Positions 1 through 29,688 of a stretch of 39,280 bases of DNA are shown in pieces. Position numbers and translations under genes: made by a program. This stretch comes from Bacteroidales bacterium (GTDB lineage Bacteria; Bacteroidota; Bacteroidia; Bacteroidales; WCHB1-69): positions 1 to 39,280 of the forward strand of contig JAISUP010000041.1 in assembly GCA_031272025.1 (NCBI GenBank). Reading direction: 5' to 3'. A model generated the notes under the pieces. It was not told where the DNA came from, did not search any database, and was given only the letters and a program-made list of their open reading frames with translations. Positions within the stretch are counted from its first letter, which is position 1. The number at the start of each line of letters is the position of its first letter.

Positions 1-1
1 T

Positions 2-724: not shown

Positions 725-731
725 GTTCACT

Positions 732-3020: not shown

Positions 3021-3023
3021 GAC

Positions 3024-3962
3024 ATGAAATTTCGTACAGAATTATTGCCAAACGCGGCACCCTTTAAAATTACTCATGCTGATACGCTCTGTATGATAGG
3101 CTCTTGTTTTTCAGACAATATGGGGCGTTATTTTGAAGACCACGAATTTGAGGTACTGTCTAACCCGTTTGGCACCCTCTACAATCCGGCTTCTATCGCG
3201 TTAGCATTGCAATTGGCAATGTTTCCTGACGACTATAGCAACCGTTATGTCTGTTTTCACGATAACTTATGGCATAGTTTTGCTCACCACGGGCGTTTTT
3301 CTCATCCCGATGCCCGTGTATTTGAAAATCAAATCAAAACACAATTACAACATACCCGCGATTTTTTGAAAACAACACGATACTTATTCATCACTTTCGG
3401 GACATCTTTTACCTATCGACATATAGAGCGAGACTTTGTCGTGGCAAATTGTCATAAACTCCCCGCCCATTTTTTCGAGAAAAAATTGATGAGCATCGAA
3501 GAAATCATAACCGTTTTTAGCCATATTCGCGATAAGTTCAAAGTATTCAATCCTCATGCCCGACTGATTTATTCCATTAGCCCTATACGGCATCTTGGCG
3601 ATGGATTTCACGCGAACACGACAAGTAAAGCATTACTGCATATTGCCGTGAATCATTTGATAGAAAAAGACCCCGAAGACATTTATTTTCCTGCTTACGA
3701 ATTGTTGCTTGATGATTTGCGCGACTACCGGTTTTACGACCATGACCTTTGTCACCCAGCAGAAAATGCCATTGAATATATTCGCGAAAAAGTAACAACT
3801 ACTTTTTTTGATGAAAAAACTATCGAGAAAAATAAAAATATAGCACGAGAAAAAAAGGCAAAACAACACGTAACCCTTATTCCCGAACATGCAAAAACTC
3901 CTGATACAAACGCAACTCCCCGTTTTGTACCTCGTCAGGATAAAAATGCCGCACCCCGATAA
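3024..3962 (+). CDS. GSCFA-domain protein (SGNH-like hydrolase fold)
   Basis: The 312-residue protein has the family signature GSCFSDNMG near residue 27, the block SPIRHLGDGFHAN near residue 185 and a late DHDLCHPAE (DxxH-like) block near residue 240. These fit a Ser...Asp-His arrangement as in SGNH/GDSL hydrolases. The GSCFA family is widespread in Bacteroidota and Proteobacteria; its substrate is unknown, and a role in acyl or cell-surface glycan modification is only a guess. It starts 3 bases after the GH92 stop. After the domain there is a Lys-rich, then Pro/Thr-rich tail whose last 28 codons lie antisense to the end of the convergent gene, which suggests an extended, non-conserved C-terminus. 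Confidence 0.88.
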   Translation: MKFRTELLPNAAPFKITHADTLCMIGSCFSDNMGRYFEDHEFEVLSNPFGTLYNPASIALALQLAMFPDDYSNRYVCFHDNLWHSFAHHGRFSHPDARVFENQIKTQLQHTRDFLKTTRYLFITFGTSFTYRHIERDFVVANCHKLPAHFFEKKLMSIEEIITVFSHIRDKFKVFNPHARLIYSISPIRHLGDGFHANTTSKALLHIAVNHLIEKDPEDIYFPAYELLLDDLRDYRFYDHDLCHPAENAIEYIREKVTTTFFDEKTIEKNKNIAREKKAKQHVTLIPEHAKTPDTNATPRFVPRQDKNAAPR

Positions 3963-4776
3963 CATTGCCCGAAGAGTCATACTCATGCTCTGTGCACGAC
4001 AAGGCATGCCCTTCTCCATCTACTACCTCGCTCTTCACGAGTTTGTCGCCCTGATAATGATTTGTCGTTTTCTGATAATGGTCTAAGTCTTCCTCTTCCA
4101 ACACGAGCACTAACCCGCTGTCGTTATAAGAAGTATAACATTTCGCGATGAGAATATTTTCATAATCGTAAATCAAACGCTTAATCTCACGACCGTGTTC
4201 GTCATATTCCCAAAAGCAAGTTCGCCTATCCTTTTCTAAAACTTCATCTCTTACCTGTTTAATTACCAATCCATTAGAGTCGTATGTAAAAACAGTTACA
4301 TACTTTTCTTCCGCGTCTTCGTTGTACTCTATGATTTTAATAATCTTATTTTCAGAATTATAAAGCCATTTTTTTTCCGTGAAAGCGAACTGACCTTCAT
4401 CGTATGAATCTTGTTGCATAATTTTATCCCCCTCATACGTGTAATGAGTTTCGTAAGTAATGCCCATTTCTCCCAACTCGTGCCTCTGTATCAGCACCCT
4501 GTCGCGCTCATCGCGGGTAAATCCCGTAACCTCTACCAATTGCCCATCCCCATCATACTGGCAAGTTTTTGACAATCGCCCATGAGCATCGTATTCGTTA
4601 ATAACACGGTAATTCAACTCGTTCTCGGCAAGATAGTGTTTTTCCTGTTCTACATGAGCGTCCGCGTTGTACACGATTTCAGAGAACAAAAACTTTTCTT
4701 GCAGAATATCTTCTTTCCCGTAACCCGAACGAACATACCGGGTACAATAGATTTTCAATGATTTAAGAGTGTTCAT
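3877..4776 (-). CDS. YD/RHS-like repeat protein, function unknown
   Basis: The 299-residue protein is built of repeats of about 20-25 residues with the pattern Y(D/N)xxGxxxxxxxxxxD, for example YDAHGRLSK, YDGDGQLVE, YDSNGLVIK, YDEHGREIK, YNDSGLVLV and YDSSGNVIG. This is the YD/RHS-like pattern that forms beta-strand-rich shells or MORN-like sheets. It has no signal peptide or toxin domain and is very acidic. It is therefore not a full RHS toxin; a cytoplasmic scaffold or binding protein is possible. A likely promoter lies about 40-70 bases upstream (4818-4848). Its 3' end overlaps the convergent GSCFA gene by 86 bases. Confidence 0.75.
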   Translation of the reverse strand: MNTLKSLKIYCTRYVRSGYGKEDILQEKFLFSEIVYNADAHVEQEKHYLAENELNYRVINEYDAHGRLSKTCQYDGDGQLVEVTGFTRDERDRVLIQRHELGEMGITYETHYTYEGDKIMQQDSYDEGQFAFTEKKWLYNSENKIIKIIEYNEDAEEKYVTVFTYDSNGLVIKQVRDEVLEKDRRTCFWEYDEHGREIKRLIYDYENILIAKCYTSYNDSGLVLVLEEEDLDHYQKTTNHYQGDKLVKSEVVDGEGHALSCTEHEYDSSGNVIGVRHFYPDEVQNGELRLYQEFLHVRE

Positions 4777-4817
4777 GATCTTTTCGTATTTTTTTATGAA
4801 TATAATTTTTCAAGCGA

Positions 4818-4848
4818 CAAAAATACATGAATTTTTCGAGATTTTCAA
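4818..4848 (-). promoter_or_regulatory. Putative Bacteroidota promoter of the YD-repeat gene
   Basis: Read on the minus strand, CTTG (-33 box, ending at 4846), a 20-base spacer and TATTTTTG (-7 box TAnnTTTG, 4825-4818) lie about 40 bases before the start codon at 4776. This fits the sigma-ABfrA consensus TTTG-N19-TAnnTTTG with one mismatch in the distal box. Confidence 0.6.
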
Positions 4849-4904
4849 GCAGAAAAACACGAAAGCAAATCTTAGAAAATATAAAAATAAGAAAAAGAGA
4901 CGAC

Positions 4905-6380
4905 TTAGTAGGCTCTCGCGAAAATAACTCGCTGTTTTGAAGGCTTACCCGTGAGAATACACTTCCCGGGAGTCAAAGGATTTTGGAAAGGAATACAGCG
5001 AATCGTTGCTTTTGATTTTTCTTTAATCATATCTTCGGTTTCGGGGGTACCATCCCAATGTGCCTGCACGAAGCCACTTTGATGATCTAAAATATCAATA
5101 AACTCGTCCCACGTATTCGCCTCTCTAATATGGCTGTCTCTGAAAGCCAAGGCTTTCCTGTATAAATTTTGTTGAATGTTATCCAAGAGTTGCGCGATCG
5201 TTTGGTCTAAATTTTCCAAAGGCAATATTGATTTTTCGAGGGTATCGCGACGTGCTACCTCTGCTTGCTTATTTTCCAAATCACGAGGACCAATAGCCAC
5301 GCGCACGGGGACTCCTTTAACTTCATACTCGTTGAATTTCCACCCTGACCGTTTCGAATCATCGGTATCATATTTCACGAGTATATGGTTATCGCGCAAC
5401 TTTTGAATTAACGGGAGTACTTGCTCGCTAATGGCTTTCAACTGTATCTCGTCTTTAAAAACAGGAATAATCACTACTTGTATAGGGGCAAGTTTGGGGG
5501 GCAATACCAGCCCGTTATCATCAGAATGTGCCATGATAAGAGCACCTAACAGTCGAGTAGAAACACCCCACGAAGTTGCCCATACATATTCCAACTGATT
5601 TTCTTTATTTAAGAATTTCACGTCGAAAGCCTTCGCGAAGTTTTGTCCTAAGAAATGCGAGGTTCCGGCTTGCAAGGCTTTCCCGTCCTGCATCATTGCC
5701 TCAATGCAAAAAGTATCTTCAGCACCGGCAAAACGCTCGTTAGGGGTTTTTATTCCTTTGATGACCGGTAATGCCATGTAATTTTCTGCAAAATCGGCGT
5801 ATACTTCCAACATGCGCTCGGCTTCGGCTACGGCTTCCTCGCGGGTAGCATGTGCTGTGTGTCCCTCTTGCCATAAAAATTCTGCCGTGCGCAAAAATAG
5901 ACGTGTGCGCATTTCCCAACGCACCACATTTGCCCATTGATTACAAAGCACGGGCAAATCGCGATACGACTGTATCCAATTTTTATACGTGTCCCAAATA
6001 ATGGTTTCAGAAGTAGGACGCACGATGAGTTCCTCTTCTAATTTGGCTTCAGGGTCAACAACAACCCCTTTCCCTTGAGGATTGTTGATAAGTCGGTAAT
6101 GCGTTACCACGGCACATTCTTTGGCAAAACCGTCTACATGTGCAGCTTCGCGACTAAGAAATGACTTAGGGATAAAAAGCGGGAAATACGCGTTCACATG
6201 TCCCGTGTCTTTGAACATTTTATCTAAGGCATCGTGCATTTTTTCCCAAATCGCGTAGCCATGAGGTTTGATAACCATACAACCCCTAACTGCCGAATTT
6301 TCGGCAAGATCTGCCTGCTTCACGATGTCGTTATACCATTGAGAATAATTATCCTCTCTACTTGTAATATTTTTAGCCAT
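4905..6380 (-). CDS. proS: Prolyl-tRNA synthetase (archaeal/eukaryal type, no INS editing domain)
   Basis: Charges tRNA-Pro with proline in the cytoplasm. The 491-residue length and the continuous class II core fit the short archaeal/eukaryal type. Motif 1 lies around [14 protein letters not shown], motif 2 around [20 protein letters not shown], and motif 3 around [11 protein letters not shown]; the anticodon-binding domain begins near residue 300. The protein ends in ...RVIFARAY, with the terminal Tyr typical of this type. The long insertion (INS) editing domain of the bacterial type is absent between motifs 2 and 3. This type is usual in Bacteroidota. It lies downstream of tRNA-Pro, tRNA-Arg and a small lipoprotein gene on the same strand. 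Confidence 0.96.
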
Positions 6381-6424
6381 AATTATTTATATTTCAATGC
6401 TATTATTGTTATAATAAGAAAAAA

Positions 6425-6844
6425 TCAATTAAAACTTTTCACACGTAGCCTCATGCCATCATATATAGTTTTGTAATATCTCAGAGGCAATGTTGCCGGA
6501 CCGTCAATGGGATCCCCGTTTAGAATATTATATCTTGACCCGCAAGCACTATCAATAAGTGTCAACCCGTCATCGGCAACCCATAGCCACGAGTCGTTAT
6601 CTTCCCAATCGTAGGGACAAGCCCTGTCATAAGCCACGAAATTATTATAGTCAACTCTATAAATCACGATACCATTCACACCGCCGGTAAAATACATATA
6701 ACCACCGGGATAGAGTAAATCAGCATAAGTAATATCATTAGGATATATTGTAAAATTCACATACACGCTTGGCAAATTAGTAGGGTCGAAATGACAACTC
6801 GTGAACGCGAAAAGAAAAAATATATATAACAGTATTTTTTTCAA
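6425..6844 (-). CDS. Small lipoprotein with a degenerate Rieske-like fold
   Basis: The 139-residue protein begins with a lipoprotein signal (lipobox FTSC, Cys17). The second half follows the Rieske [2Fe-2S] layout: a CPYDWED block (Cys76), a spacer, CGSRYNI (Cys101), then NGDPIDGPATLPLRYY. In true Rieske proteins the ligands are CxH and CxxH. Here the histidine positions are Tyr78 and Arg104, so the cluster cannot be bound in the usual way. Such ligand-poor Rieske-like lipoproteins occur in Bacteroidota, but no function is established that I know of. It lies between the tRNA pair and proS, 44 bases before proS, and may share their transcript. Confidence 0.75.
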   Translation of the reverse strand: MKKILLYIFFLFAFTSCHFDPTNLPSVYVNFTIYPNDITYADLLYPGGYMYFTGGVNGIVIYRVDYNNFVAYDRACPYDWEDNDSWLWVADDGLTLIDSACGSRYNILNGDPIDGPATLPLRYYKTIYDGMRLRVKSFN

Positions 6845-6867
6845 TGTAATTAAGGGCTTTCTTTACG

Positions 6868-6940
6868 CGATTCCGGCTGGGATCGAACCAGCAACCTACT
6901 GCTTAGAAGGCAGTTGCTCTATCCATTGAGCTACGGAACC
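6868..6940 (-). tRNA. tRNA-Arg (anticodon TCT)
   Basis: On the minus strand a complete cloverleaf can be folded. The acceptor stem is GGTTCCG/CGGAATC with one G-T pair and discriminator G. There is a D arm (TAGCTCAATGGATAGAGCA), an anticodon stem-loop with TCT in the loop CTTCTAA, and a T arm containing GGTTCGATCCC. The length is 73 bases without CCA, and CCA is not encoded. TCT reads AGA/AGG arginine codons. Confidence 0.95.
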
Positions 6941-6967
6941 CGTGAAGTATAATTTCTATACTTGTTG

Positions 6968-7042
6968 TCGGGATAGCAAGATTCGAACTTGCGATCTCCT
7001 GCTCCCAAAGCAGGCGCGCTAACCGGACTACGCCATATCCCG
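6968..7042 (-). tRNA. tRNA-Pro (anticodon TGG)
   Basis: On the minus strand the acceptor stem is CGGGATA/TATCCCG with discriminator A. The anticodon stem CCTGC/GCAGG encloses the loop TTTGGGA with anticodon TGG, and the T arm contains AAGTTCGAATCTT. Length is 75 bases, CCA not encoded. It lies 27 bases upstream of tRNA-Arg, and prolyl-tRNA synthetase follows on the same strand. Confidence 0.95.
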
Positions 7043-7054
7043 AATTTCTGACCG

Positions 7055-7062
7055 CGAAGATA
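7055..7062 (-). promoter_or_regulatory. Possible -7 box for the tRNA-Pro/tRNA-Arg unit
   Basis: The minus strand reads TATCTTCG followed by C, 12 bases before the tRNA-Pro 5' end. It matches TAnnTTTG with one change (T to C). No clear -33 box is seen. Confidence 0.35.
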
Positions 7063-7086
7063 CGGTTTTTTTTTGAATTAAAAAGG

Positions 7087-8646
7087 TTACAGCGGCAAGT
7101 TGTCGTGTTTCTTCGCGGGATTTTCTAATCTTTTGTTTTTCAAAGATTCTAAAGCCCTAATGACCCTAAAACGGGTATTTCGAGGTTCTATAACATCATC
7201 CACGTAGCCATACCGGGCGGCAACGTATGGGTTAGCAAACGCGTCGCGATATTCCGTTTCTTTCTCGTTGATAAACTCGTTTTGTTGAACCGGGTCGGTC
7301 AAATTTTTAATTTCTTTTCCCATGAGTACTTCCACGGCTCCTTTGGCACCCATTACTGCAATTTCGGCGGTAGGCCACGCGTAATTGATGTCGCCTCTCA
7401 AATGTTTGGAACTCATCACGATATATGCTCCTCCATAATTTTTACGCATAATCACGGTTACTTTGGGTACGGTGGCTTCCCCATAGGCATAGAGCAGTTT
7501 TGCCCCATGCAGGATAATACCTCCATATTCTTGTCCCGTGCCGGGCAAAAAACCGGGGACATCAACCAAGGTTACCAACGGGATATTAAAGGCATCGCAA
7601 AAACGGACAAAACGGGCTCCTTTGCGCGAAGCATTGATGTCGAGTACCCCTGCCAAATATTTGGGCTGATTCGCGACAACACCTACCGACATGCCATTGA
7701 AACGGGCAAAACCGATAATGATATTTTGAGCATAATTTGACTGTATCTCGAAAAAGCAACGGTCATCTACAATACTATAAATTACCTCTTTCACGTCATA
7801 GGGTTTGTTGGGGTTATCGGGGATGATCTCGTTGAGATAATCTTCCAGACGATTGATAGGGTCGGTAGTAGGCACGTATGGAGGTTCTTCCATGTTGTTA
7901 GAAGGTAAAAATGACAGTAATTCCCGCAAAATTCTCATGCCATCTTCTTCGTTATCCACGGCAAAATGTGCAACTCCCGATTTGGTAGAATGTACCGATG
8001 CTCCTCCCAAATCTTCTACGGTAACATCTTCGTTTGTAACGGTCTTCACTACTTTTGGACCGGTTACGAACATATAACTCGTATTTTTTGCCATCATGAT
8101 AAAATCGGTGAGGGCAGGAGAATAGACAGCACCTCCGGCGCAGGGTCCAAAAATGACCGAGATTTGGGGGACTACCCCTGAGGCAAGAATATTACGTTGA
8201 AAAATTTCGCCATAACCCGACAAACTGTTCACGCCTTCTTGTATGCGCGCGCCGCCGGAATCGTTAAAACCGATAACCGGTGCCCCCATTTTCATTGCCA
8301 TATCCATTATCTTGCAAATCTTCGCGGATACGGTTTCTGACAAAGAGCCTCCAAAAACAGTAAAATCTTGCGAGAACACGTACACTAAGCGTCCTTCAAC
8401 AGTACCGTAACCGGTAATGACACCATCGGATAAGGGTTTGTCTTTTTCCATCCCGAAATTGGTGCAACGATGGGTTACAAACATGTCAAATTCCTCAAAA
8501 CTGCCCTCGTCAAGAAACATGAGCAGTCTCTCTCTCGCGGTGAATTTCCCTTGCTGGTGTTGTTTTTCTACTCGTTTCTCCCCGCCCCCTAAGCGCGCTT
8601 TCGCACGAAGTTCAAGAAGTTCGTTTACCTTCTCTTGCATTATCAT
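7087..8646 (-). CDS. Acyl-CoA carboxylase / methylmalonyl-CoA decarboxylase carboxyltransferase subunit
   Basis: The 519-residue protein is a biotin-dependent carboxyltransferase of the propionyl-CoA carboxylase beta / MmdA family, acting on propionyl-CoA or methylmalonyl-CoA. Visible landmarks are the N-terminal [20 protein letters not shown], the acyl-CoA oxyanion region [13 protein letters not shown] near residue 130, [13 protein letters not shown] near 168, and the C-terminal biotin-side loop [18 protein letters not shown] followed by [10 protein letters not shown]. In Bacteroidales it usually works with a small membrane subunit and a biotin carrier in propionate formation; neither is adjacent here. 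Both MIMQEKV and the ATG two codons later could be the start. It is divergent from nqrA across 201 bases. Confidence 0.92.
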
Positions 8647-8847
8647 AACTATATAATTTTTAATATTTTCATATTATAAAAATGAACACTTATCGCGAAA
8701 ACAAACAAGTGTTTTTCTGCTCTTTTTCGCAGGTGCGAAGGTACAACATTTTTTTGAAACAAAAACCTGTTTTATGAGACAATCTTATGATTTTTTTTCA
8801 TTGGCTTTCAATTTTTTTTTATATTTGCAACGCAAACAATAAAAAAA
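8647..8847. promoter_or_regulatory. Divergent promoter region between the carboxyltransferase gene and nqrA
   Basis: For nqrA, TATATTTG at 8820-8827 (plus) is a full TAnnTTTG -7 box, with TTG at 8801-8803. For the leftward gene, the minus strand reads TACCTTCG at 8743-8736, one base from consensus, with TTG at 8762-8760. Both distal boxes sit only 16 bases from their -7 boxes. A 7-bp inverted repeat AACACTT/AAGTGTT (8685-8691, 8707-8713) lies in the leftward leader. Confidence 0.55.
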
Positions 8848-10176
8848 ATGCCTAAGATTATAAAGATAAAAAAAGGTTTGAATATCAAACTAAAAGGTGC
8901 AGCATCTTCGATGGCTCTTCCTTTTCGAGCCACTGAGTATGCCCTTGTTCCTGCCCATTTTCGGTGGATTACCCCAAAGATGTTAGCGAAAGAAGGTGAC
9001 CCTGTAAGCGTGGGAACACCTGTTTTTTGCGCGAAAGAAGACGAAAGGATTATCTTCGTGTCGCCGGTAAGCGGGGTGGTGAAACAAGTGGTACGGGGTG
9101 AAAAACGAAAAATAGAACACGTGAGCATAACCTCTGACGAACAATTTAAAACCGTGCCCTTGGAGTTGCCCGCCGAGATAACCCCCGACCTCATAAAAAA
9201 ATGTTTATTACAATACGGGCTATGGAATTTGCTACGCGAACGTCCTTTTAATAGGATAGCCAACCCTGACCAATTACCCAAAGCCATTTTTGTCAGCGGG
9301 TTCGACACAGCACCCCTTGCCCCAACACCCGCGCAACTCGTGCAAAAGGAATGGGAAACCCTGCAAAAAGGAATTGACATACTCAAAATATTAACAGGAA
9401 AACCCTTATACCTCTCTTTATATCACGAGGACAATAACGAGCATTTTGAAAAACTGACATCGGTAGAAGTCCGTTATTTCACGGGGAAACATCCCGCGGG
9501 CAATATAGGGACACAAATACACCATATCGCGCCCATCAATAAAGGAGGAACCGTTTGGCATATCACACCGGAGGCATTAGTAATTATCGGTCGCTTATTT
9601 TCTCGACAAATACTTGACTTCTCTCGCGAAGTAGCCCTAACCGGTAGCGCGTTGCTACGTACCGGCTATATAAATACATGTCCGGGGGCAAGAATTACGT
9701 CTTTACTTGACAATAATATAAATACCCCTCGCGCACGGGTAATCACGGGCAACGTGCTGTCGGGAAAATCTATAGGAATAGACGGCTTTTTAGGGTACTA
9801 CGACCGGCAAATCACGGTCATTCCCGAAGGAGGCGACCGTTTCTTGCTGGGTTGGCTTAACCCCGGTTTTAACCGTTGGAGTTTTTGGCATACTTATTTG
9901 TCGTGGCTATTTCCCAGTAAAAAGTTCGAGTTCACCACCGCCCTACATGGAGGCGAACGTGCCATGATGCTACACAGCGACTACGACAAAGTCTTTCCCT
10001 TCGATATCTTACCTGCCGAACTGCTCAAAGCCTGCATTGCCGAAGATATAGACCGTATGGAAGCCTTAGGAATTTACGAAGTAATAGAAGAGGATTTTGC
10101 CCTTTGCGAAGTCATTTGTCCCTCAAAAATAGAATGGCAAAAGTTGTTTTATAAAGGTTTAACATTATTAAGATAA
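8848..10176 (+). CDS. nqrA: Na+-translocating NADH:quinone reductase subunit A
   Basis: The 442-residue length and sequence fit NqrA, the peripheral cytoplasmic subunit of the sodium-pumping NADH:quinone reductase that couples NADH oxidation to Na+ export. Landmarks are the N-terminal IKIKKGLNIKLKGAAS, the barrel-sandwich region DPVSVGTPVFCAKED...VSPVSGVVKQVVRG, the middle domain with the FVSGFDTAPLAP block, and the C-terminal LHGGERAMM with PFDILPAELLKACIAEDID. It has its own -7 box 20 bases upstream. nqrB follows after 5 bases. Confidence 0.96.
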   Translation: MPKIIKIKKGLNIKLKGAASSMALPFRATEYALVPAHFRWITPKMLAKEGDPVSVGTPVFCAKEDERIIFVSPVSGVVKQVVRGEKRKIEHVSITSDEQFKTVPLELPAEITPDLIKKCLLQYGLWNLLRERPFNRIANPDQLPKAIFVSGFDTAPLAPTPAQLVQKEWETLQKGIDILKILTGKPLYLSLYHEDNNEHFEKLTSVEVRYFTGKHPAGNIGTQIHHIAPINKGGTVWHITPEALVIIGRLFSRQILDFSREVALTGSALLRTGYINTCPGARITSLLDNNINTPRARVITGNVLSGKSIGIDGFLGYYDRQITVIPEGGDRFLLGWLNPGFNRWSFWHTYLSWLFPSKKFEFTTALHGGERAMMLHSDYDKVFPFDILPAELLKACIAEDIDRMEALGIYEVIEEDFALCEVICPSKIEWQKLFYKGLTLLR

Positions 10177-10181
10177 GAAAG

Positions 10182-11321
10182 ATGAGTTGGTTAGAAAATG
10201 CAAGTAACAAAATGAATCAATGGTTTGAGAAAGGGAAGCCGTTTCATGCTTTTCAGGCATTGTTTGACGCGATAGATACTTTCTTACTTACCCCAAACAC
10301 GATTACCCATGAAGGGAGTCATATTCGCGATGCCGTGGACATGAAACGCGTGATGATGACCGTGATTGTCGCCTTAATGCCTCCCCTGCTTTTCGGGTTG
10401 TGGAACGTGGGCTATCAGCATTACCTCTCCTTGGGGGCGACCGTTTCCTTTTGGCAACAATTTTGGTATGGCTTTGTCAAGTGGTTGCCGTTGGTACTCA
10501 CGGTTTACATATCAGGACTTGCCGTAGAAATCATCTTCGCGCAAAAAAGAGGTCATCAAGTTGCCGAAGGTTTTTTTGTTACCGGGATGCTTATCCCTAT
10601 GATCATGCCCCCCGATATTCCACTATGGATAGTGGCAGTCGCGACTATCTTTGCCGTGATTTTCGGTAAAGAAGTTTTTGGCGGTAATGGTTACAATTTT
10701 CTAAATCCCGCGTTGTTAGCGCGAGTATTTGTCTTTTTTGCCTACCCTTCGGTCATCTCTGGCGACAAAGTATGGATTGCCGAAAAAGCAGACGCTTACT
10801 CAGGGGCAACTCCTCTTGCCAATGCTTCGGCAGGACTAACCGACCAATTGCCTTCATTGTTTGACTTGTTCGCGGGCACTATCCCCGGCTGCATTGGAGA
10901 AACCTCAAAAATAGCCATATTGTTGGGTGCCGCGTTACTCATCTTTACCGGCACGGCAAGTTGGCGCATCATGCTGTCAATGACTGTCGGTGCGTTTGTT
11001 ACTGCATTATTATTCAATATTTTTGGACATAGTGCCTACATGCAGGTACCCGCTCACGAGCAACTGCTCATGGGAGGTCTCTTGTTCGCGACAGTGTACA
11101 TGGCTACAGACCCCGTTACTGCCCCACACACCCGAAAAGGACACGTGATTTTTGGACTACTCGCCGGTGGTCTTACCATACTAATTCGACAAATAAACCC
11201 CGGCTACGTGGAAGGTGCCATGCTTGCCGTGATACTGATGAATATCTTCGCCCCTCTCATCGATTGGTGCGTGATACAACAAAATATCAGAAAAAGACAA
11301 AAGAGAATTTCGGCACGATGA
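10182..11321 (+). CDS. nqrB: Na+-translocating NADH:quinone reductase subunit B
   Basis: The 379-residue polytopic membrane protein is the NqrB subunit, which carries covalently bound FMN and takes part in Na+ translocation and quinone reduction. The FMN attachment motif SGAT is present with Thr210, in DAYSGATPLA. Several hydrophobic segments (about 55-75, 100-118, 130-160, 175-190, 245-285, 300-345) and the conserved GNGYNFLNPALLARVF block agree. The C-terminus is basic (IRKRQKR). The next gene, overlapping by ATGA, is not nqrC but a secreted propeller-like protein. nqrCDEF are not in the window. Confidence 0.96.
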   Translation: MSWLENASNKMNQWFEKGKPFHAFQALFDAIDTFLLTPNTITHEGSHIRDAVDMKRVMMTVIVALMPPLLFGLWNVGYQHYLSLGATVSFWQQFWYGFVKWLPLVLTVYISGLAVEIIFAQKRGHQVAEGFFVTGMLIPMIMPPDIPLWIVAVATIFAVIFGKEVFGGNGYNFLNPALLARVFVFFAYPSVISGDKVWIAEKADAYSGATPLANASAGLTDQLPSLFDLFAGTIPGCIGETSKIAILLGAALLIFTGTASWRIMLSMTVGAFVTALLFNIFGHSAYMQVPAHEQLLMGGLLFATVYMATDPVTAPHTRKGHVIFGLLAGGLTILIRQINPGYVEGAMLAVILMNIFAPLIDWCVIQQNIRKRQKRISAR

Positions 11322-12160
11322 AAAATGTATTGCCTTTTTGCAAAAATATAGTCAAAAAAATGGTCTTATTGGCTATGATACTACCCGTGTTCTTAGACAT
11401 GTACGCGCAATCCATCCCTCCTGACCGTCCCCCCGAAGAATGGAAAGGAATAACCGCCGATTTTATAACTGCCGATAAATTGAACCATATTTATCTTGTC
11501 AAAGGCAGTACCGTATACAAGTTCCCGTTTGTAGCCCATCAAGCCCCCCACGACCTCTCGCGTTCCTTATCGTATACCTATTTTTCCGCGGGAAATATCA
11601 CGAGCATTGATGTTAGCAATCCAATGAAAATCATGCTTTTTTATCAAGAAAGTGGGGTCATTGTTTTTTTAGACGACCATTTGTCGCCCGTGAGTTCGCC
11701 TCTCGTTTTAACCGAGCAGCAAATGCCCTCGATTTCATTAGCCACTTATACCTCCGATAGCAAAATATGGCTTTACGATTTCGTGAACAACGATATGATA
11801 CAATTAGACCACTATTTGAAACCCACACAACGGGTACATTACCGATTTGAATCTTTTAACCCCATACAATTCAAAGAGATATATGGTAGACAACTGATGT
11901 TGCAGGATACCGGAAGGGGACTTTATCTTTTCGACACTTTTGGAACTTATAACAAAACCTTACCGGTAATAAGCCGGTTTCCCGTGCTCGCGGCAGGACA
12001 CTCTTTTTATTATTTAAAAGAAAATGAATTGTATGTTTATAATGACCTTACCTTAAAAGAAGAACATTTTTCTTTACCCGTGCCCGGCGTGATACAATGT
12101 CTTAACATACAAAACTCGTGGGTATTCTTGACAGAAAAAGGCAGTATCTTTGTTTGGTAA
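11318..12160 (+). CDS. Secreted beta-propeller-like protein, function unknown
   Basis: I chose the ATG at 11318, which overlaps the nqrB stop as ATGA and gives a 280-residue protein with a clear signal peptide (MKNVLPFCKNIVKK, hydrophobic core, MYAQS near residue 30). An upstream ATG at 11264 would lie wholly inside nqrB. The mature part consists of repeated strand-rich blocks such as IDVSNPMKIMLFYQESGVIV, SKIWLYDFVNNDMIQLD, GLYLFDTFG and NELYVYNDL, as in beta-propeller-like proteins found in Bacteroidota. There are no cofactor or catalytic motifs, and no resemblance to NqrC. It is probably periplasmic and translationally coupled to nqrB. Its end lies 11 bases from the convergent gene. Confidence 0.75.
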   Translation: MKNVLPFCKNIVKKMVLLAMILPVFLDMYAQSIPPDRPPEEWKGITADFITADKLNHIYLVKGSTVYKFPFVAHQAPHDLSRSLSYTYFSAGNITSIDVSNPMKIMLFYQESGVIVFLDDHLSPVSSPLVLTEQQMPSISLATYTSDSKIWLYDFVNNDMIQLDHYLKPTQRVHYRFESFNPIQFKEIYGRQLMLQDTGRGLYLFDTFGTYNKTLPVISRFPVLAAGHSFYYLKENELYVYNDLTLKEEHFSLPVPGVIQCLNIQNSWVFLTEKGSIFVW

Positions 12161-12171
12161 CGTTCTTTCAT

Positions 12172-15100
12172 TCAGAATTTTGCTCTTACCTGCAAATTTC
12201 CCGTGTGTATGACTTTGTTTCCTCGCGAATAGCGTCCGTTGTAGGCGAGTTCTATTTGCAAATAGTCGGTGATATTGGCTTGATAGCCCAATGCCCACAA
12301 AGCATTATGCCCGGGGAGTAAGCCGTCTAACATCTCGTAGCAAATGGCAGTATTTATTTCTTCATTATATTGAATATAAATAAATTGTAAAGACAAATTG
12401 AGATTACCGCGTTTTATCATGCGCGAATTGCCCTCCATGAACACTTGATGCTGAAAAGCCCGCTCCATACCTTGCAGGTTTTCTTTTCGAGAAAAAATAT
12501 AACTTGCTGTCAGGAAAAAAATATTTTTCCAATCTAATTGCAAGCGTTCTTCTATGGCATGTCGCTCTATGGTATAATTTTTGCTCTGCATATAGTCGGA
12601 TATATTTCTTCGATTAAGGTTAGTATATATGGTTTTGAGCGAGAGAGTAGGGTGTGGGGTAAGCCGCAACAATATTTCATTTAGCGTTTGGTTCTGCTGT
12701 TCGAAGCCATAATATAACAAACTTTTTACTCTTCCGGTTCGAGTCATGAAATCCATACCCCAATATTTTGATAATTGATTAAAAGACAATGTATTGGTAA
12801 AATTCAGGTTGCTGCTCACTATCGAGGTATCTTCTTTATTTGAGGGGAAAGGATTCAAGAGGGCGAAGCGGTTGTACATTTGACTTTTTTGCTCCGATTG
12901 TAACGTTGTCGTGTTTGACAGCCGCGCTACAAAACCCTTCAACCCTTTTTTGCCTGCCCACACGTTGGCAGGGCGTAACGAGAGACTTTGTGTCAGTTTG
13001 TTGTTACACGTCATGATATATTCTGTGGTAGTGAGCCATATTTTAACATAAGAAGCTTCGTCTTGAAATTTAGCGGGTTCAAACTCTTCCAATTCTTCTA
13101 TCCCGTTTGCATTGTAGTCGTTCCACGCGTGTGTACCTTGTCCAGCAGCCACTTTCAGGTATGAGAAACTCTTTTTTTGCTCTTGCCCGCTACCTACTTC
13201 ATAATAAGTATTCACGAGGATAGCATTCTTAAAAAAACGTCCGCTATACTCCGCGTTCCCGATAAAAAAATGCTCATCATGACCTTTTCCTAAGGAATCT
13301 TTGGTGTGCATATTACGATAGGTAACATTCCCGCGCAGACGATGCCGCGTCCATCGGTTCCATTCAAACCACATTTTTCCCTCATGATGCATCGTTTGTA
13401 GTCGCAACGCGATACTGTCTAACGCGTAATAATCAATCCTGTTCATGTAAGAAACATGAAACCTGTAGCGCGAGGAATCGTTATTCTGCACAAAAAAACG
13501 TGCTTCATTAAAGGCGTAACTTTCCGGTCTAATTTGTTTTTCTATACTGTTTTTAAATAAGTTATATTCTCCAATATGGTTTATTCCTATTTCCATACTT
13601 TTGATTGACTGTGAAAGGAGTAGATTATTTTTTAAGAATTGGCTATTTCGTGAAGAGTCGGACGAGAGCAAAAAAGAGGTTTGGCTCTCGCAGTTGACCC
13701 CGTGCCCGTGCAAATGAGTCGTGAGTTCGTTGCGCGTAGCCGTGATCTCGTCTTCGCGATGAAAAAAATTAAGTAGATAATCAATGCTTCCCGTTTTTTC
13801 ATGACTAATTCCGGTCTGAAAATGAAGCATTTGTTCGGCATTTTTTCGTTCTGTGAGTGAATTTAGATTATAGTCTCTGGCAAATTCCACGTTTCTGAAA
13901 CTCTCGGTAGTATAAAAATCGCGATGTAACCATTCGTATTGCAATTGATGCGCGAGCGTCCAAGGAGAGGATACCTGTTTTTTTGATTTGAGAGCATACC
14001 GGGTGTTAAAACCCATTTTGAGCGCATAGCCAAGGTTGTCGTTTTTATCTTTTTGGGAGAAAGTATTGAGGTCGTGATTGGAGAATGCCCCTTCTATTTG
14101 TAGCAGGCTATGCTTTTTAAAGCGATATTCGGCAGCCACGACACCCAAGTCCGTCATTTGTGGGGCAGTAAGTAACAACACGGGGTCGTAATTACCTTGT
14201 TTGATACCATTGACCGGAGCGACCCACCGAAAGACTCTGCCATTGGCGGTACTTCTATCCAACACGTAATTTCCTTGTCCTTCTCCCGTGAGCGTGAACC
14301 CGGGACGATACAACTGCACATCCGCCCGGGTGCTATGCCGATAAATATGATACGTTTCCCCGTTAACTACCGTGTCTATAGCAACATATAAAACTTCATT
14401 ACTATTAAAAGTCGCGGTATCCACCACGGGATAATATGCCCCCGTCAATTGGTCACCCAAAGAGGACAAAAATTGCTTGCGCGGGTTGTCTAATTCCGGC
14501 TGTATAGAACGATTACGGTCATCTTGCTCGTGCAAAAAATGAACATTGATTTTTAGTCTGTCGTTTTTTTCGTGTAAAAATTGATTATAGGTAAAAAGAG
14601 AGAAACGGTTAAAGTGCTCATTTTTGTATTCAAATTCTACGACAACACGTTTTTCGGCAGTAATAAGCGTGCGCGGAGTAAAGGTAATTTCTCCGGTATT
14701 GTAATTCATCACGTAGTCGTTTTCCTCTCCACGTGTAAGTAATTGTCCATCAATATATACTCTTTCACTACCGGAAACGATGATGACCGTGGCTTCTTGA
14801 TACGTGCCGGTAAGACGGTAAGGACCTTGCACCCCGTTGGCAACCGACAAGGTTTGTCGTGCAAAGATACCTTTGTTAATACCTCCTCCAACCTGATTTT
14901 GCAACGTGTTGACATTTTTTATTTTCTGAATCGAAGATAGGGACATTCCTAAAACCCGTTTGTTCACGACCATGAAATAAGACGATGGAGAAACAATATC
15001 AATATCACCGGCATGTAGCAAAAGTTGATTTTTATAATTAAGATGAATAAAAATGCGGTCAAAATCTTGTATCATTCTACTGTTTCCTTCGGGTTGCATG

Positions 15101-15675
15101 GGAATATTCCGGTCGGTAATATGAGCACTAACCGTTAGCCCATCTGCCAACGTACCTGATAATTGCAAATTCATATTTGATGATAACACGGGGTCTTGAT
15201 TGTTTCCCATGCTAAAGCCTCGCGCGATGCTACCCGCGATTTCGAGTTGACTCTCATCGGCGTTGACCCACGCGGGCAAAGTCTGTATAACCTGAAATGA
15301 CGAATGATAGCCCTCGGCTTTGGGTAAGAGTATTTGGGTAGACCGATGCTGATAATGCCGGGTGAAATTGAAAGGAAAAACCCGATAACTAAACGAGATG
15401 GTTTTTCCTAAAACCGAGTCTCCCGTGATATGTAAAGTCGCCGTAACCGAATTTAAATGATAATCACTGCTATCTAATCCTTTTAAGACAAACGAGGCAG
15501 GCAGAATGGGTAACGAATCTAAATGCAGAACAAGGGTGTCAATAGTACGCGTACCTGTCCTGAAAGTACTACCTGCACGAAAAGGAGAAATCTCTTTTTG
15601 CCCGTAACCCACCATGATACAAAAACACGAGGCAAACATTATTCCCAATATAATAAAGACTTTGGGGGGATACAC
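12172..15675 (-). CDS. Very large outer-membrane beta-barrel protein, function unknown
   Basis: The 1167-residue protein has an N-terminal signal (MYPPKVFIILGIMFASCFCIMVGYGQ). The N-terminal 250 residues are strand-rich, with Bacteroidota-type blocks such as FSMGNNQDPVLSSNMNLQLS and GDIDIVSPSSYFMVVNKRVL. The long C-terminal part has alternating amphipathic strands and ends in VRAKF with a terminal Phe, typical of outer-membrane barrels. The size and N-terminal pattern recall SprA-like or other large surface secretion/assembly proteins, but I do not recognise it as SprA. There is no TonB box, plug or Ig-like adhesin domain that I can see. It lies 59 bases after the phosphohexomutase gene on the same strand, perhaps in one transcript with rnr. 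Confidence 0.7.
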   Translation of the reverse strand: MYPPKVFIILGIMFASCFCIMVGYGQKEISPFRAGSTFRTGTRTIDTLVLHLDSLPILPASFVLKGLDSSDYHLNSVTATLHITGDSVLGKTISFSYRVFPFNFTRHYQHRSTQILLPKAEGYHSSFQVIQTLPAWVNADESQLEIAGSIARGFSMGNNQDPVLSSNMNLQLSGTLADGLTVSAHITDRNIPMQPEGNSRMIQDFDRIFIHLNYKNQLLLHAGDIDIVSPSSYFMVVNKRVLGMSLSSIQKIKNVNTLQNQVGGGINKGIFARQTLSVANGVQGPYRLTGTYQEATVIIVSGSERVYIDGQLLTRGEENDYVMNYNTGEITFTPRTLITAEKRVVVEFEYKNEHFNRFSLFTYNQFLHEKNDRLKINVHFLHEQDDRNRSIQPELDNPRKQFLSSLGDQLTGAYYPVVDTATFNSNEVLYVAIDTVVNGETYHIYRHSTRADVQLYRPGFTLTGEGQGNYVLDRSTANGRVFRWVAPVNGIKQGNYDPVLLLTAPQMTDLGVVAAEYRFKKHSLLQIEGAFSNHDLNTFSQKDKNDNLGYALKMGFNTRYALKSKKQVSSPWTLAHQLQYEWLHRDFYTTESFRNVEFARDYNLNSLTERKNAEQMLHFQTGISHEKTGSIDYLLNFFHREDEITATRNELTTHLHGHGVNCESQTSFLLSSDSSRNSQFLKNNLLLSQSIKSMEIGINHIGEYNLFKNSIEKQIRPESYAFNEARFFVQNNDSSRYRFHVSYMNRIDYYALDSIALRLQTMHHEGKMWFEWNRWTRHRLRGNVTYRNMHTKDSLGKGHDEHFFIGNAEYSGRFFKNAILVNTYYEVGSGQEQKKSFSYLKVAAGQGTHAWNDYNANGIEELEEFEPAKFQDEASYVKIWLTTTEYIMTCNNKLTQSLSLRPANVWAGKKGLKGFVARLSNTTTLQSEQKSQMYNRFALLNPFPSNKEDTSIVSSNLNFTNTLSFNQLSKYWGMDFMTRTGRVKSLLYYGFEQQNQTLNEILLRLTPHPTLSLKTIYTNLNRRNISDYMQSKNYTIERHAIEERLQLDWKNIFFLTASYIFSRKENLQGMERAFQHQVFMEGNSRMIKRGNLNLSLQFIYIQYNEEINTAICYEMLDGLLPGHNALWALGYQANITDYLQIELAYNGRYSRGNKVIHTGNLQVRAKF

Positions 15676-15734
15676 GGCGTGAAGTTATTCGTTTTTTTTA
15701 CAATATCAATAGCGTCTCTATCCTGTACAAGAAA

Positions 15735-17078
15735 TTACGCGAATTGTCTTAAAATATTTTCTATTTCATTGATTTTTAATGTTAACAATTCCTGAGTACG
15801 GGCTTCTACAAGGAGTCGTAAATAAGGTTCGGTATTAGAGGGACGAATGTTGAACCACCATGATTCAAACTCTATCCTATAGCCATCAAAATCCATAATT
15901 TTCAATGCTTTTTCTTGTTCGAGAAAATGTTTTTTCACGGTTTCTATGGCACCTTCTTTGTTCGCTATTTTAAAATTGAGTTCACCTGAATTAGCATACA
16001 CGGCTATACGCGAAATAAGCGCGGATACAGAGATTCCTTTGGTTTTCATTTGACTGAAAACATGTAAAATAAGGAGTGCCGCGAGCATGGCAGAATCAGA
16101 ATAGAAAAAATATTTAGAATAATAATGACCTGCAAATTCTCCGCCAAAAGATCCGTTGATTTCACGCAATTTCAGGGCAGCGTATGCCCTTCCAACCCGC
16201 CAAATATAGGGTTCGCATCCCATTTTCTCGATATATTCGGATACCGACTTCGAGGTACGGATATCCATGATTACTTGCCCTTCTTCGTGTTTTTCTAAAA
16301 TATAATAATGAGCCAAAACCGCGATCAATAAGTCGGGGGGTATAAATTTTCCATGCTCATCCACGAACATGACCCTGTCTGCATCGCCATCAAAAATAAC
16401 CCCTATATCGGAAAACGTGCCTGTAACTTTTTGAGACAAATCTTTTACATTTTTCATTTCCAAAGGGTTGGCTTCATGATTTGGAAAATGTCCATCGAGG
16501 ATGTCGTACAAATAGATAGGTTTTTGTCCAAAAATATCTTTAACCAAAAGTGAAGCCATGCCGTTAGAGCAATCTATGACCATATTGAGATTCGATATAT
16601 CATATTGATAGCGAGACAAAAAAGAAAGGTATTCTGCTTTCACGGGATAGTTGATGATTTTTCCCTGCTTTAAGACGGGTTTAGGGGTAGTTCGGGTTAG
16701 CCATTTTTCCAAGGTAGCGAGTCCGGTGTCATAGCCTACCGGTAAAGCGTTAGCACGAGATATTTTTAGACCGTTGTATTCTTTCGGGTTATGAGATGCC
16801 GTAATCATGACCGAAGCCTCGAAATGATGTTTTGCCGTGAAATAATACACCATAGGAGTAGTGCAAAGTCCCATGTCATACACGTCTGCCCCAGCCTCAA
16901 CAATTCCGCGCGCTAAGGCTTCAAACATACCGGGGGACGACAAGCGGGCATCCCTGCCTACCAATATCTTCCGCGTGTTTAATAATTCAGGTAAAAAATA
17001 CCCTATTTTATACACATCTTCTAACGTGAAATCTTCTTCAAATTTGCCTCGAAAATCGTATGCTTTAAACGCGTTCAT
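15735..17078 (-). CDS. manB: Phosphomannomutase / phosphoglucomutase
   Basis: The 447-residue alpha-D-phosphohexomutase interconverts hexose 1- and 6-phosphates for nucleotide-sugar and surface-glycan synthesis. All four family motifs are visible: the phosphoserine loop TASHNPKEYNG (Ser95), the Mg2+ loop FDGDADR (Asp230, 232, 234), the sugar-binding loop GGEFAGHYY (about 312-320), and the phosphate loop RPSNTEPYLR (412-421). The FAGH variant of the sugar loop and overall length fit the AlgC/ManB group rather than GlmM. It starts 14 bases after rnr and is probably co-transcribed with it. The gene symbol is by family resemblance; substrate preference is not provable here. Confidence 0.92.
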   Translation of the reverse strand: MNAFKAYDFRGKFEEDFTLEDVYKIGYFLPELLNTRKILVGRDARLSSPGMFEALARGIVEAGADVYDMGLCTTPMVYYFTAKHHFEASVMITASHNPKEYNGLKISRANALPVGYDTGLATLEKWLTRTTPKPVLKQGKIINYPVKAEYLSFLSRYQYDISNLNMVIDCSNGMASLLVKDIFGQKPIYLYDILDGHFPNHEANPLEMKNVKDLSQKVTGTFSDIGVIFDGDADRVMFVDEHGKFIPPDLLIAVLAHYYILEKHEEGQVIMDIRTSKSVSEYIEKMGCEPYIWRVGRAYAALKLREINGSFGGEFAGHYYSKYFFYSDSAMLAALLILHVFSQMKTKGISVSALISRIAVYANSGELNFKIANKEGAIETVKKHFLEQEKALKIMDFDGYRIEFESWWFNIRPSNTEPYLRLLVEARTQELLTLKINEIENILRQFA

Positions 17079-17092
17079 CTGTCTTTATTTTT

Positions 17093-19237
17093 TTATGATA
17101 CTATATCAAAAGTCATTTGTTTTTTTAACATGTCTACCTCTACCACTTTCACCCTGATTTTATCACCAAAGCGAATCATGCGTCCGTGGTGTAATCCCAC
17201 GAGCGTATAGTTTTCTTCATCAATATAATAAAAGTCATCGTCGAATTTGCGAATAGGGATAAGACCTTCACATTTGTTGTCTTGCAGTTCGGCAAAGACC
17301 CCCCAACGCGTAATTCCATTCACGGTTGCCTCAAAAACCTGTCCTATTTTATCGGTCAAAAATTCGGCTTGTTTGTAACGTATGGATGCCCGTTCTGCTT
17401 CATTTGCTCGCTGTTCCATTTGAGAAGCATATTTGCAACGCGTTTCCAAGTCATCCGCGTTGGCACTCGCCCCCCCATGCAAATAATGGTCTAACAAACG
17501 ATGTACCATTAAGTCGGGATAACGGCGAATAGGAGAAGTAAAATGCGTGTAATAAGAAAAGCCCAGCCCGTAGTGCCCGATATTTTGAGTAGAATATACA
17601 GCCTTCGACATGAGCCGTATCGAAAGTTTGGTAAGCATATCGTGTTCGGGGCGAGATTTCATCGTGCTAAATAATTGATTGAAAGATTTCGCGAGTACTT
17701 TGCGCGAGCCTGTTTTTAAATCAAAACCTAACTTTTGCACGAATTTACGAAACGTATCTACCTTGTCGCTCACCGGTTCGTCGTGTACACGATACAAAAA
17801 CGTGCGCGGTTGCGGGTTACGGGCACTCTTTTTCCCTATTTTTTCGGCTACTTTTCGATTGGCAAGGAGCATGAACTCTTCGATGAGAAAATTGGATTCT
17901 TTCTCTACCTTCACGTAAACACCGGTAGGATGTCCGTTCTCGTCCAAGTGAAATTTTACCTCTTCGGTTTCAAAATTGATGGCTTGTTTTTCCAAACGTT
18001 CGGCACGCATGATTTGGGCAAGCCGATGCAAAGTCAAAATAGATTCGCACATATCCCCTTTTCCGGTTTCGATAACCTCTTGTGCTTCTTCGTAAGAAAA
18101 ACGACGATTGGAATGAATCACGGTACGTCCGAACCATTCGCGGTGCACTTTCCCATGCTCATCAAGGTCGAATACCGCGCTATAACACAATTTATCTTCG
18201 TGTGGTTTGAGCGAACAAAGGTTGTTGGACAAAATTTCGGGTAACATGGGAATGGTGCGGTCTACCAAATAGACCGATGTTCCTCTGCGAGAGGCTTCCT
18301 CATCAACCGGGGTTCCGGGGCGGACATAATAAGACACGTCCGCGATGTGTACTCCCACGCGAATATACCCGTTTTCAATCACCTCGCACGACAGCGCATC
18401 GTCAAAGTCTTTGGCATCCGCGGGATCTATCGTGAATGTGGGTACCCCTCGAAAGTCTTTCCTGCATGAAATTTCCTGTTTTGAAATAGGAATATCCGAT
18501 TTTGCAGCAGCGGCTTCTGCCTCAGGGGGAAACGAAAGCGGGAAGTCATACTCGGCAAGTATTGCATTCATCTCTACGTTATTATCCCCCGGTTTTCCCA
18601 AACGATGAAGCACTTCCCCTAAGGGGCTACGCGTACCCGCTTTCCAATCCGTGATCACGATAACAACCTTCTCGCCATCTCGCGCCCCCCCCAGCAGCCG
18701 ACCTGGAATCAGAATTTCTCTACGAAAAGCAGGATTGTCGGGTAAGAAATAGGCAACACTTTTCTTAATCTTAATATTCCCTACCAATTGTTTTTTACTG
18801 CGTTCAACTACCTCTACGATTTCACCTTCCAATCCTTTGCGTCTCGCGATAGGAAATACTCGCGCTTTAACTCTATCATTGTGTAGCGCGTTACTCAAAT
18901 TCCCGTCCGCGATAAAAATGTCATCGGTTTCACCTTCTTCGGGGAGCACGAATGCCGCCCCGGACATAGTAACATGCAATTTTCCAATAACATAATTATG
19001 AGAAGTGTGTTCCCTGTTCAAGTATTTGCTGTTTATGCGATATTTTCCTCGCCCCGCGTGTAGCAAAATCTTCTTATCTATAAAATCCTGTATAACCTCT
19101 TGCACCTGCGCACGCCCTTCTTTATCAAAAATCCCGACTTTTGCCGCTAATTGTTTGTAGTTGTACAAAGCGTGAGCACTCTCGGAAAAAGTGTCTATCA
19201 ACTTTTTGGCTATTAGTGTATTGTCCTGCTTCAGCAT
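17093..19237 (-). CDS. rnr: Ribonuclease R
   Basis: The 714-residue processive 3'-5' exoribonuclease of the RNB family degrades structured RNA. Domains in order: a winged-helix region (about 1-70), a cold-shock domain with GKLHVTMSGAAFVLPE (about 84-130), a second CSD-like region, and the RNB catalytic domain. The catalytic DPADAKDFDD (271-280) is intact, followed by HIADVSYYVRPGTP and RYPDLMVHRLLDHYL. A C-terminal S1 domain (GITRWGVFAEL...CEGLIPI) runs from about 630. The Lys-rich tail of the E. coli enzyme is absent, which is common in this phylum. A -7 box lies upstream at 19300-19307. An uninterrupted run of eight C (plus strand 18685-18692) encodes Gly-Gly. Confidence 0.96.
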   Translation of the reverse strand: MLKQDNTLIAKKLIDTFSESAHALYNYKQLAAKVGIFDKEGRAQVQEVIQDFIDKKILLHAGRGKYRINSKYLNREHTSHNYVIGKLHVTMSGAAFVLPEEGETDDIFIADGNLSNALHNDRVKARVFPIARRKGLEGEIVEVVERSKKQLVGNIKIKKSVAYFLPDNPAFRREILIPGRLLGGARDGEKVVIVITDWKAGTRSPLGEVLHRLGKPGDNNVEMNAILAEYDFPLSFPPEAEAAAAKSDIPISKQEISCRKDFRGVPTFTIDPADAKDFDDALSCEVIENGYIRVGVHIADVSYYVRPGTPVDEEASRRGTSVYLVDRTIPMLPEILSNNLCSLKPHEDKLCYSAVFDLDEHGKVHREWFGRTVIHSNRRFSYEEAQEVIETGKGDMCESILTLHRLAQIMRAERLEKQAINFETEEVKFHLDENGHPTGVYVKVEKESNFLIEEFMLLANRKVAEKIGKKSARNPQPRTFLYRVHDEPVSDKVDTFRKFVQKLGFDLKTGSRKVLAKSFNQLFSTMKSRPEHDMLTKLSIRLMSKAVYSTQNIGHYGLGFSYYTHFTSPIRRYPDLMVHRLLDHYLHGGASANADDLETRCKYASQMEQRANEAERASIRYKQAEFLTDKIGQVFEATVNGITRWGVFAELQDNKCEGLIPIRKFDDDFYYIDEENYTLVGLHHGRMIRFGDKIRVKVVEVDMLKKQMTFDIVS

Positions 19238-19299
19238 AAATATATTTGTATTTTGGTTAAGTTGTGTTTTACAAATTAAAGTTTATTGAATTAAAAGTG

Positions 19300-19333
19300 C
19301 AAATATACATGAAAAAAACAATAGTTTGACAAA
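19300..19333 (-). promoter_or_regulatory. Putative promoter of rnr
   Basis: The minus strand reads TTTG (19333-19330), a 22-base spacer and TATATTTG (19307-19300), about 60 bases before the rnr start. The -7 box is a full TAnnTTTG match; the spacer is slightly long. Confidence 0.55.
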
Positions 19334-19363
19334 AAAAAAATTCAACAGTTTAAAAACACGTGG

Positions 19364-19392
19364 TTGTACCTAAAAAAAATCATGTATTTTTG
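19364..19392 (+). promoter_or_regulatory. Putative promoter of pdxA
   Basis: TTG (19364-19366), an 18-base spacer and TATTTTTG (19385-19392) form a Bacteroidota-type promoter about 60 bases before the pdxA start. The 216-base gap between rnr and pdxA carries this and the divergent rnr promoter in A/T-rich DNA. Confidence 0.6.
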
Positions 19393-19453
19393 CAAAAAAA
19401 TTTCTGAAAAAAAAAGAGGAGATTTTTAGATTATTTTTGACAGACTAAAAAAC

Positions 19454-20461: not shown

Positions 20462-20529
20462 AAAAAGAAAATAAAGATAGGGTATATGTGAATTTTTTTT
20501 TGTAATTTTACCGCCCGAAATTTGAGTAG

Positions 20530-20617
20530 GGAGAGATGGCCGAGTGGTCGAAGGCGCACGCCTGGAAAGTGTGTAAACGCCGAAAGCGTTTCAAGGGTTC
20601 GAATCCCTTTCTCTCCG
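20530..20617 (+). tRNA. tRNA-Ser (anticodon GGA)
   Basis: The acceptor stem is GGAGAGA/TCTCTCC with discriminator G. The anticodon stem CACGC/GTGTG encloses the loop CTGGAAA with GGA at 20564-20566. A long class II variable arm (AACGCCGAAAGCGTT) and a T arm with GGGTTCGAATCCC complete it. Length is 88 bases, CCA not encoded. Confidence 0.97.
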
Positions 20618-20685
20618 CGAATAAAAAATATTGATAATCAAATTAGTAAAATCATTTTTAACCGAATCAATTAATTAATTCAAAG

Positions 20686-21498: not shown

Positions 21499-21540
21499 GT
21501 AGCATTTATCTATTTTTATAATCCATTAATACACTGAAAA

Positions 21541-22488: not shown

Positions 22489-22490
22489 TT

Positions 22491-23072: not shown

Positions 23073-23076
23073 AATT

Positions 23077-23568: not shown

Positions 23569-23616
23569 TTTGTTTTTTTATATTTTGTGTTAATATTTTT
23601 TGTTTTCATTGTTGAT

Positions 23617-23645
23617 AGAAAAGGGTGCCGTGTGTGCCCTTTTCT
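23617..23645 (+). terminator. Possible terminator after the exb operon
   Basis: AGAAAAGGG (23617-23625) pairs with CCCTTTTCT (23637-23645) around an 11-base loop. The 3' arm supplies a short T run, but no long U tract follows, so this may be a weak terminator or a processing hairpin ahead of yicC. Confidence 0.5.
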
Positions 23646-23667
23646 CTTGGAAAAAAAGAGATAGATT

Positions 23668-25829: not shown

Positions 25830-25834
25830 AAAAA

Positions 25835-29681: not shown

Positions 29682-29688
29682 TGCTGTA

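Follow-up and report, generated by a model that had tools for sequence, protein, structure and literature searches.

Codon context around nqrB in a Bacteroidales genome: DNA words, lost palindromes and a candidate methyltransferase-glycosylase pair

Introduction

In nqrB (Na+-translocating NADH:quinone reductase subunit B; positions 10182..11321, plus strand, of the 39,280-nucleotide stretch that we analysed, called the window below) the choice of a codon appears to depend on the last base of the codon before it. The original prediction was that C-ending codons tend to be followed by G-ending ones and T-ending codons by C-ending ones, that this habit runs through most genes of the window, and that it comes from pressure on words crossing codon borders and not on single codons. 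It was to fall if shuffles keeping codon use and amino-acid order gave the same pair counts, and it called for a comparison with related genomes and with non-coding DNA. The question that the locus raises is thus what is being selected or mutated, a pair of codons or a word of DNA, and by what agent. nqrB itself turns out to be an ordinary host gene carrying a genome-wide signature.

Results

The counts on which the idea was built are correct. For alanine in nqrB they are exact, with GCC 12, GCT 2, GCA 2 and GCG 1 after T and GCG 7, GCC 3 and GCT 2 after C, as they are for threonine after C (ACG 3, ACC 1, ACT 1); after T, threonine has the ACC 5, ACT 3 and ACG 0 that were given and one ACA that was left out. 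Valine has the same habit, with C|GTG in 9 of 12 cases. To score the pattern we added C|{GCG,ACG,GTG} and T|{GCC,ACC,GTC} and compared the sum with shuffles that keep codon use and amino-acid order. nqrB scores 40 against 17.3±3.3 (maximum 29 in 2000 shuffles), so the bias survives, and the habit seen by eye across the window holds as well, with a score of 694 against 331.8±15.0 (maximum 381 in 500 shuffles). The third bases of nqrB are 26 C to 2 T before RYG and 19 C to 39 T before RYH (Fisher p=1e-7). The gene has 10 unstranded CGCG words, the first at 10268..10271 and the others starting at 10326, 10347, 10538, 10640, 10709, 10720, 10871, 10931 and 11087, against 2 TGCG and 2 CGCA; the whole window (1..39280) has 299 CGCG, 72 TGCG and 78 CGCA.

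The source genome, that of a gut bacterium, is a 1.88 Mb Bacteroidales assembly in 104 contigs, of which 1.85 Mb was covered as loci, and its nearest named relatives include MAGs with the bin names Gx481 and Rs511. Codon context was counted in 1197 ORFs taken from 1.57 Mb of this genome, observed against shuffle-expected. Over-represented are C|GCG (4811 vs 1895, 2.54x), T|GCC (6110 vs 3403), C|GTG (5751 vs 2516) and C|ACG (3333 vs 1604), and under-represented are T|GCG (608 vs 2215, 0.27x), C|GCA (474 vs 2068), A|GCT (101 vs 1403, 0.07x) and, nearly to extinction, G|GCC (12 vs 2274, 0.005x). The shuffles thus fail to reproduce the pair counts genome-wide as they did in nqrB, and the codon-context habit is real, extends over the whole genome and is far beyond chance. 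Its wording needs some correction. The rule of C-ending after T-ending codons is only partly general, since T|GGC (0.81) and T|CTC (0.84) go the opposite way.

Two DNA-level components account for most of the bias, a preference for CRYG and a loss of short palindromes. The first is that CRYG is favoured over TRYG and its complement CRYA, with the peak at CGCG. Among synonymous C/T third bases, C makes up 77% before RYG and 28-40% before RYA, RYC or RYT, which gives a C-versus-T log2 odds ratio (OR), RYG against RYH, of 2.75±0.02 genome-wide. In relatives the third-base log2 OR scatters around 0, with one clear exception. At third positions the effect is graded by the core of the word (GC 4.37, GT 3.04, AC 2.58, AT 1.61), while the pooled relatives lie between -0.05 and 0.21 for the same four cores. 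Only the outer C of CGCG responds: Y|GCG has 89% C against 28% for Y|GCH, and the inner C, CGY|G, has 64% against 60% in the control. The ratio of observed to expected CGCG (O/E) is uniform, at 1.29-2.14 in 100 pieces of the genome; relatives range from 0 to 1.47 with a median of 0.84. The exception among the relatives is L094 (JANTGU010000054.1; genome G393), a Bacteroidales record with a weaker and broader third-base preference for C before RNG (log2 OR 1.70±0.31). Its genome gave a partial C5-methyltransferase match, and no Mig-like or Vsr match was found in it.

Selection on codon pairs in translation, through a preference of ribosome or tRNAs for certain neighbouring codons, would be the usual reading of such numbers, and at codon borders the effect is indeed very strong and persists when codons are shuffled with their use kept. 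A translational bias would be confined to coding DNA in frame, and this was not found. In strict non-coding DNA the log2 OR for the GC core is 4.10±0.21, equal to the 4.37±0.06 of third positions, and it is 1.0-1.7 for the other cores. The preference for CGCG over TGCG is symmetric between the strands, four genes of the translation machinery (rpsL, rpsG, fusA and rpsJ) show no excess (2.98±0.45 vs 2.75 for the genome), and close relatives, whose proteins are similar, lack the bias. In intergenic DNA and on either strand the bias falls on the same words, which excludes a codon-pair rule; together with the translation genes this points to repair or mutation plus site avoidance, and we consider codon-pair selection extremely unlikely. 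Of the claim that words crossing codon borders are the unit and not single codons, the word therefore stands and the codon border proves incidental.

Counted free of frame on both strands, the tetranucleotides tell the same story, with O/E of 0.02 for GGCC, 0.06 for AGCT, 0.03 for CTAG, 0.32 for GATC and 0.49 for CGCA/TGCG at one end and 1.78 for CGCG, 1.67 for CACG/CGTG and 1.60 for GGCA/TGCC at the other. The correlation that matters is the one between bases three apart: it is 28.9 millibits for neighbouring third positions and falls to 1.8 at a distance of two codons, and in non-coding DNA it is 9.3 millibits against 2.8 in relatives. YRYR words hold 38% of the context chi-square and palindromes 11%; only part of the remainder is probably knock-on or compensation.

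The second component is the loss of palindromes. Genome-wide there are 113 GGCC against 5309 expected (0.02), 79 CTAG against 2770 (0.03), 222 AGCT against 3390 (0.07), 11 CATATG against 269 (0.04), 329 GTSAC against 1609 (0.20) and 157 CCWGG against 733 (0.21). The window retains GGCC at 7373, 20538 and 30716 and AGCT at 6144, 6929, 13054 and 23954, and has no CTAG in its 39,280 nt. In intergenic DNA, and in every codon phase that leaves them free to vary, there is a shortage of GGCC, AGCT, CTAG and GATC, as is expected of restriction-site avoidance, and ordinary avoidance is what this loss looks like. The avoidance of GGCC and AGCT produces the shortage of G|GCC and A|GCT and with it part of the GCC excess after T. 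Site avoidance is established, and systems that have since been lost can leave it behind (PMC4687349). As the sole C5-methyltransferase of the genome is a putative CGCG enzyme (see below), the avoidance of GGCC and AGCT may have been left by systems that are gone or that are not of the C5 type. GGCC avoidance is common to near relatives and AGCT avoidance mostly is not. CTCGAG and CTGCAG are also among the strongly lost palindromes, and there is no resident C5-methyltransferase for GGCC or AGCT. In the rather distant relative L122 (SUYL01000038.1) AGCT has an O/E of 0.09, against 0.92 in L123, whose nqrB is equally identical to the query; one may ask whether L122 has had a recent AGCT restriction system.

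Could avoidance alone, driven by present or past enzymes, explain everything, with the favoured words as compensation? The depth of the palindrome losses, the near absence of G|GCC and the precedent of lost-system traces speak for it. It is part of the story but not the whole of it, because avoidance of restriction sites could not yield an excess of CGCG over TGCG, neither TGCG nor CGCA being palindromic, and near relatives that avoid GGCC (L074, L075 and L080) have a CGCG O/E of 0.53-0.87. As the sole cause, avoidance seems to us quite unlikely.

Candidate genes for the first component are found not in the window but on contig C101 of this genome. A C5-methyltransferase (G000:C101:18192-19484, minus strand), the sole PF00145 match in the genome (E 1e-51), has the PCQ and ENV motifs invariant in the alignment and is encoded directly downstream of a Mig-like HhH-GPD glycosylase of 235 aa (G000:C101:19477-20181, minus strand), overlapping the end of its gene. 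The glycosylase matches PF00730, and its four FeS-cluster cysteines are invariant in the alignment. Its best PDB match is 1KEA, the G:T mismatch enzyme Mig.MthI (E 4e-26), ahead of MutY, whose best chain reaches 8e-21, and its score of 121 with the MutY model is below the cut-off of 286.5, so that it is closer to Mig than to MutY. The residues E42, R47, A50, F27 and Y126 of Mig are present together with the catalytic Asp; L187 of Mig, like A50 and Y126 a residue of the pocket, is replaced by Trp and not by the Q of MutY. An ordinary MutY, with the V and Q of that family at the equivalents of A50 and L187, is also encoded in the genome. From its sequence the enzyme is likely a Mig.MthI-type thymine-DNA glycosylase, with predicted activity on T:G. 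Vsr could be dismissed as the repair enzyme, as PF03852 has no match in the genome.

The target of the methyltransferase was approached through its homologues. One of them, in genome G268, has ThaI, which cuts CGCG, as its neighbour (PF15514, E 1.5e-83); this homologue is 52% identical to the first row of the alignment and the specificity region is strongly conserved. M.FnuDII methylates the outer C of CGCG (PMC3658993). Given the ThaI-side homologue, the outer-C bias and the CGCG-depleted records described below, our enzyme probably methylates the outer C of CGCG too. No restriction gene adjoins it. As to other methylases of the genome, no Dam-type D12 enzyme was found, and N6/N4 methylases are present without a link to the CRYG signature. 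Two related N4/N6 DNA methylases lie at contig ends (L023, 9542-11014, plus strand; L008, 1-771, minus strand), the former with a C-terminal part resembling a restriction domain.

A methyltransferase with no adjoining restriction gene also suggests a different cause, namely selection for retaining or acquiring methylated CGCG sites for epigenetic regulation or self-marking, with no bias of repair, and CGCG is in fact the most enriched word. But CGTG, CACG and CATG, which would not be methylated, are enriched as well, in graded fashion and at the expense of TRYG and CRYA, and the effect is uniform over the contigs, as the 100 pieces show. We regard such selection as very unlikely.

Mig-like glycosylases occur in only 3 of 393 related genomes (the source genome, G001 and G142) and homologous methyltransferases in 13 of the 393. 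In G001, of the same genus, glycosylase and methyltransferase form a single protein of 659 aa (L267, 1347-3323, minus strand, with a second copy in L279), and after this fusion comes a likely restriction gene that matches no family. In G142 the glycosylase adjoins a C5-methyltransferase of a different family; the two are convergent on L282, which also has a 393-aa probable restriction gene. Proteins of about 335-365 aa adjoin the CGCG-type methyltransferases (L268, 446-1495; L267, 292-1341; L272, 2743-3747; L274, 395-1489). They have no NCBIfam match, no Pfam match in the three tested and no PDB match for that of L268, and are probably unnamed restriction enzymes, perhaps cutters of CGCG. An NgoBV-like (GGNNCC) identity for the partner restriction genes was dropped for want of a Pfam, NCBIfam or PDB match.

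The sign is reversed in two other Bacteroidales records whose methyltransferase is homologous to ours. In one, Parabacteroides distasonis has a CGCG O/E of 0.38 and a GC-core log2 OR of -1.90±0.38, and Prevotella sp. oral taxon 299 has 0.15 and -2.88±0.72. In P. distasonis a Mig-type gene was not found near the methyltransferase, and neither record appears among the tblastn matches at E 1e-15 in the searched collection, from which the absence of such a gene in Prevotella and in the rest of P. distasonis is taken. Their loss of CGCG can be due to deamination, restriction avoidance or both, and by either route it supports CGCG as the target of this methyltransferase family. That the sign flips where the glycosylase is present is what a T:G to C:G repair that overcorrects would do.

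Among plasmids, Mig-like genes adjoin C5-methyltransferases in 7 of the 8 examined, the mig gene of pFV1 included. The CRYG signal is absent from the Alisedimentitalea plasmid and from pFV1; these two were set aside as replicates, as their methyltransferases come from other families and a plasmid need not stay with one host.

Discussion

We propose that the main component of the bias comes from Vsr-like repair by a Mig-type glycosylase paired with a CGCG methyltransferase, with site avoidance added to it, and give this reading a probability of about 0.77. We infer the two activities, the CGCG specificity and the causation from the words, the genes, their neighbourhoods and the statistics of relatives. 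The methyltransferase would mark the outer C of CGCG (m5CGCG), deamination there would leave a T:G mismatch, and the glycosylase would remove the T. Like E. coli Vsr, it would also act where T was the correct base and at relaxed sites, and TRYG (complement CRYA) would steadily be turned into CRYG, most of all TGCG into CGCG, then TGTG into CGTG and TACG into CACG, and least TATG into CATG. At third positions the outcome would be a C-ending codon before a G-ending one and a T-ending codon before one ending in C or T. Avoidance of GGCC, AGCT and CTAG would in addition keep GCC from following G-ending codons and GCT from following A-ending ones.

The pair and the signature were seen together in one genome. 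This leaves some room for another lineage-specific mutational process, such as a change in a polymerase or in repair, with the same four-base context and no relation to the gene pair, and L094 with its related bias and no Mig-like or Vsr match is a point in its favour. Such a process would need to peak by chance at CGCG, and there at the outer C only, in a genome with a putative outer-C methyltransferase and a Mig-type glycosylase. We therefore think it unlikely.

Four known systems come closest to what is seen here. Mig.MthI with M.MthTI on pFV1 of Methanothermobacter is likewise a Mig-type HhH-GPD FeS glycosylase near a C5-methyltransferase, and its gene is among the tblastn matches (E 6e-24). 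It differs in that our methyltransferase belongs to a different family (placed with the CGCG enzymes by what lies next to its homologues), that pFV1 has an NgoPII-family restriction enzyme, that no restriction gene adjoins our pair, and that the Trp at L187 and the genome-wide word signature are found here. E. coli Vsr also performs a biased T:G to C:G repair at words related to methylation and reshapes the word frequencies of its genome, which is discussed in a passage of PMC5337935 citing Bhagwat and McClelland 1992. Vsr is a nicking endonuclease acting on CCWGG-related words, whereas the enzyme here is a glycosylase and the words are CRYG, with CGCG at the peak. The CGCG restriction-modification systems (ThaI, FnuDII, CpaAI) share with our genome the methyltransferase homologue next to ThaI and the outer C, as for M.FnuDII, but here CGCG is enriched and not avoided, and no CGCG restriction gene adjoins. 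The known traces of site avoidance resemble the near absence of GGCC, AGCT, CTAG and CATATG and cover the second component only. In the open-access literature searched we found no earlier account of a Mig-type glycosylase leaving its fingerprint across a genome.

These results show that a strong codon-pair bias can arise wholly from DNA repair and restriction, which is a warning against reading codon-pair scores as a property of translation. They also allow the target of an uncharacterised methyltransferase to be predicted from genome words alone. Overcorrection by a glycosylase is in addition a candidate and testable cause for over-represented restriction sites, such as the CCGG of Helicobacter that Rusinov et al. 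reported without explanation (PMC4687349). For the organism itself, we lean, by a little more than even odds, to the idea that a Mig-type glycosylase, taken over from a restriction-modification system and remaining beside an orphan CGCG methyltransferase, turns TRYG into CRYG in one direction throughout the genome and reshapes the codon pairs of the whole bacterium. The codon context would then be a record of methylation, and the fusion in the sister genome would be a protein that can both write and proofread.
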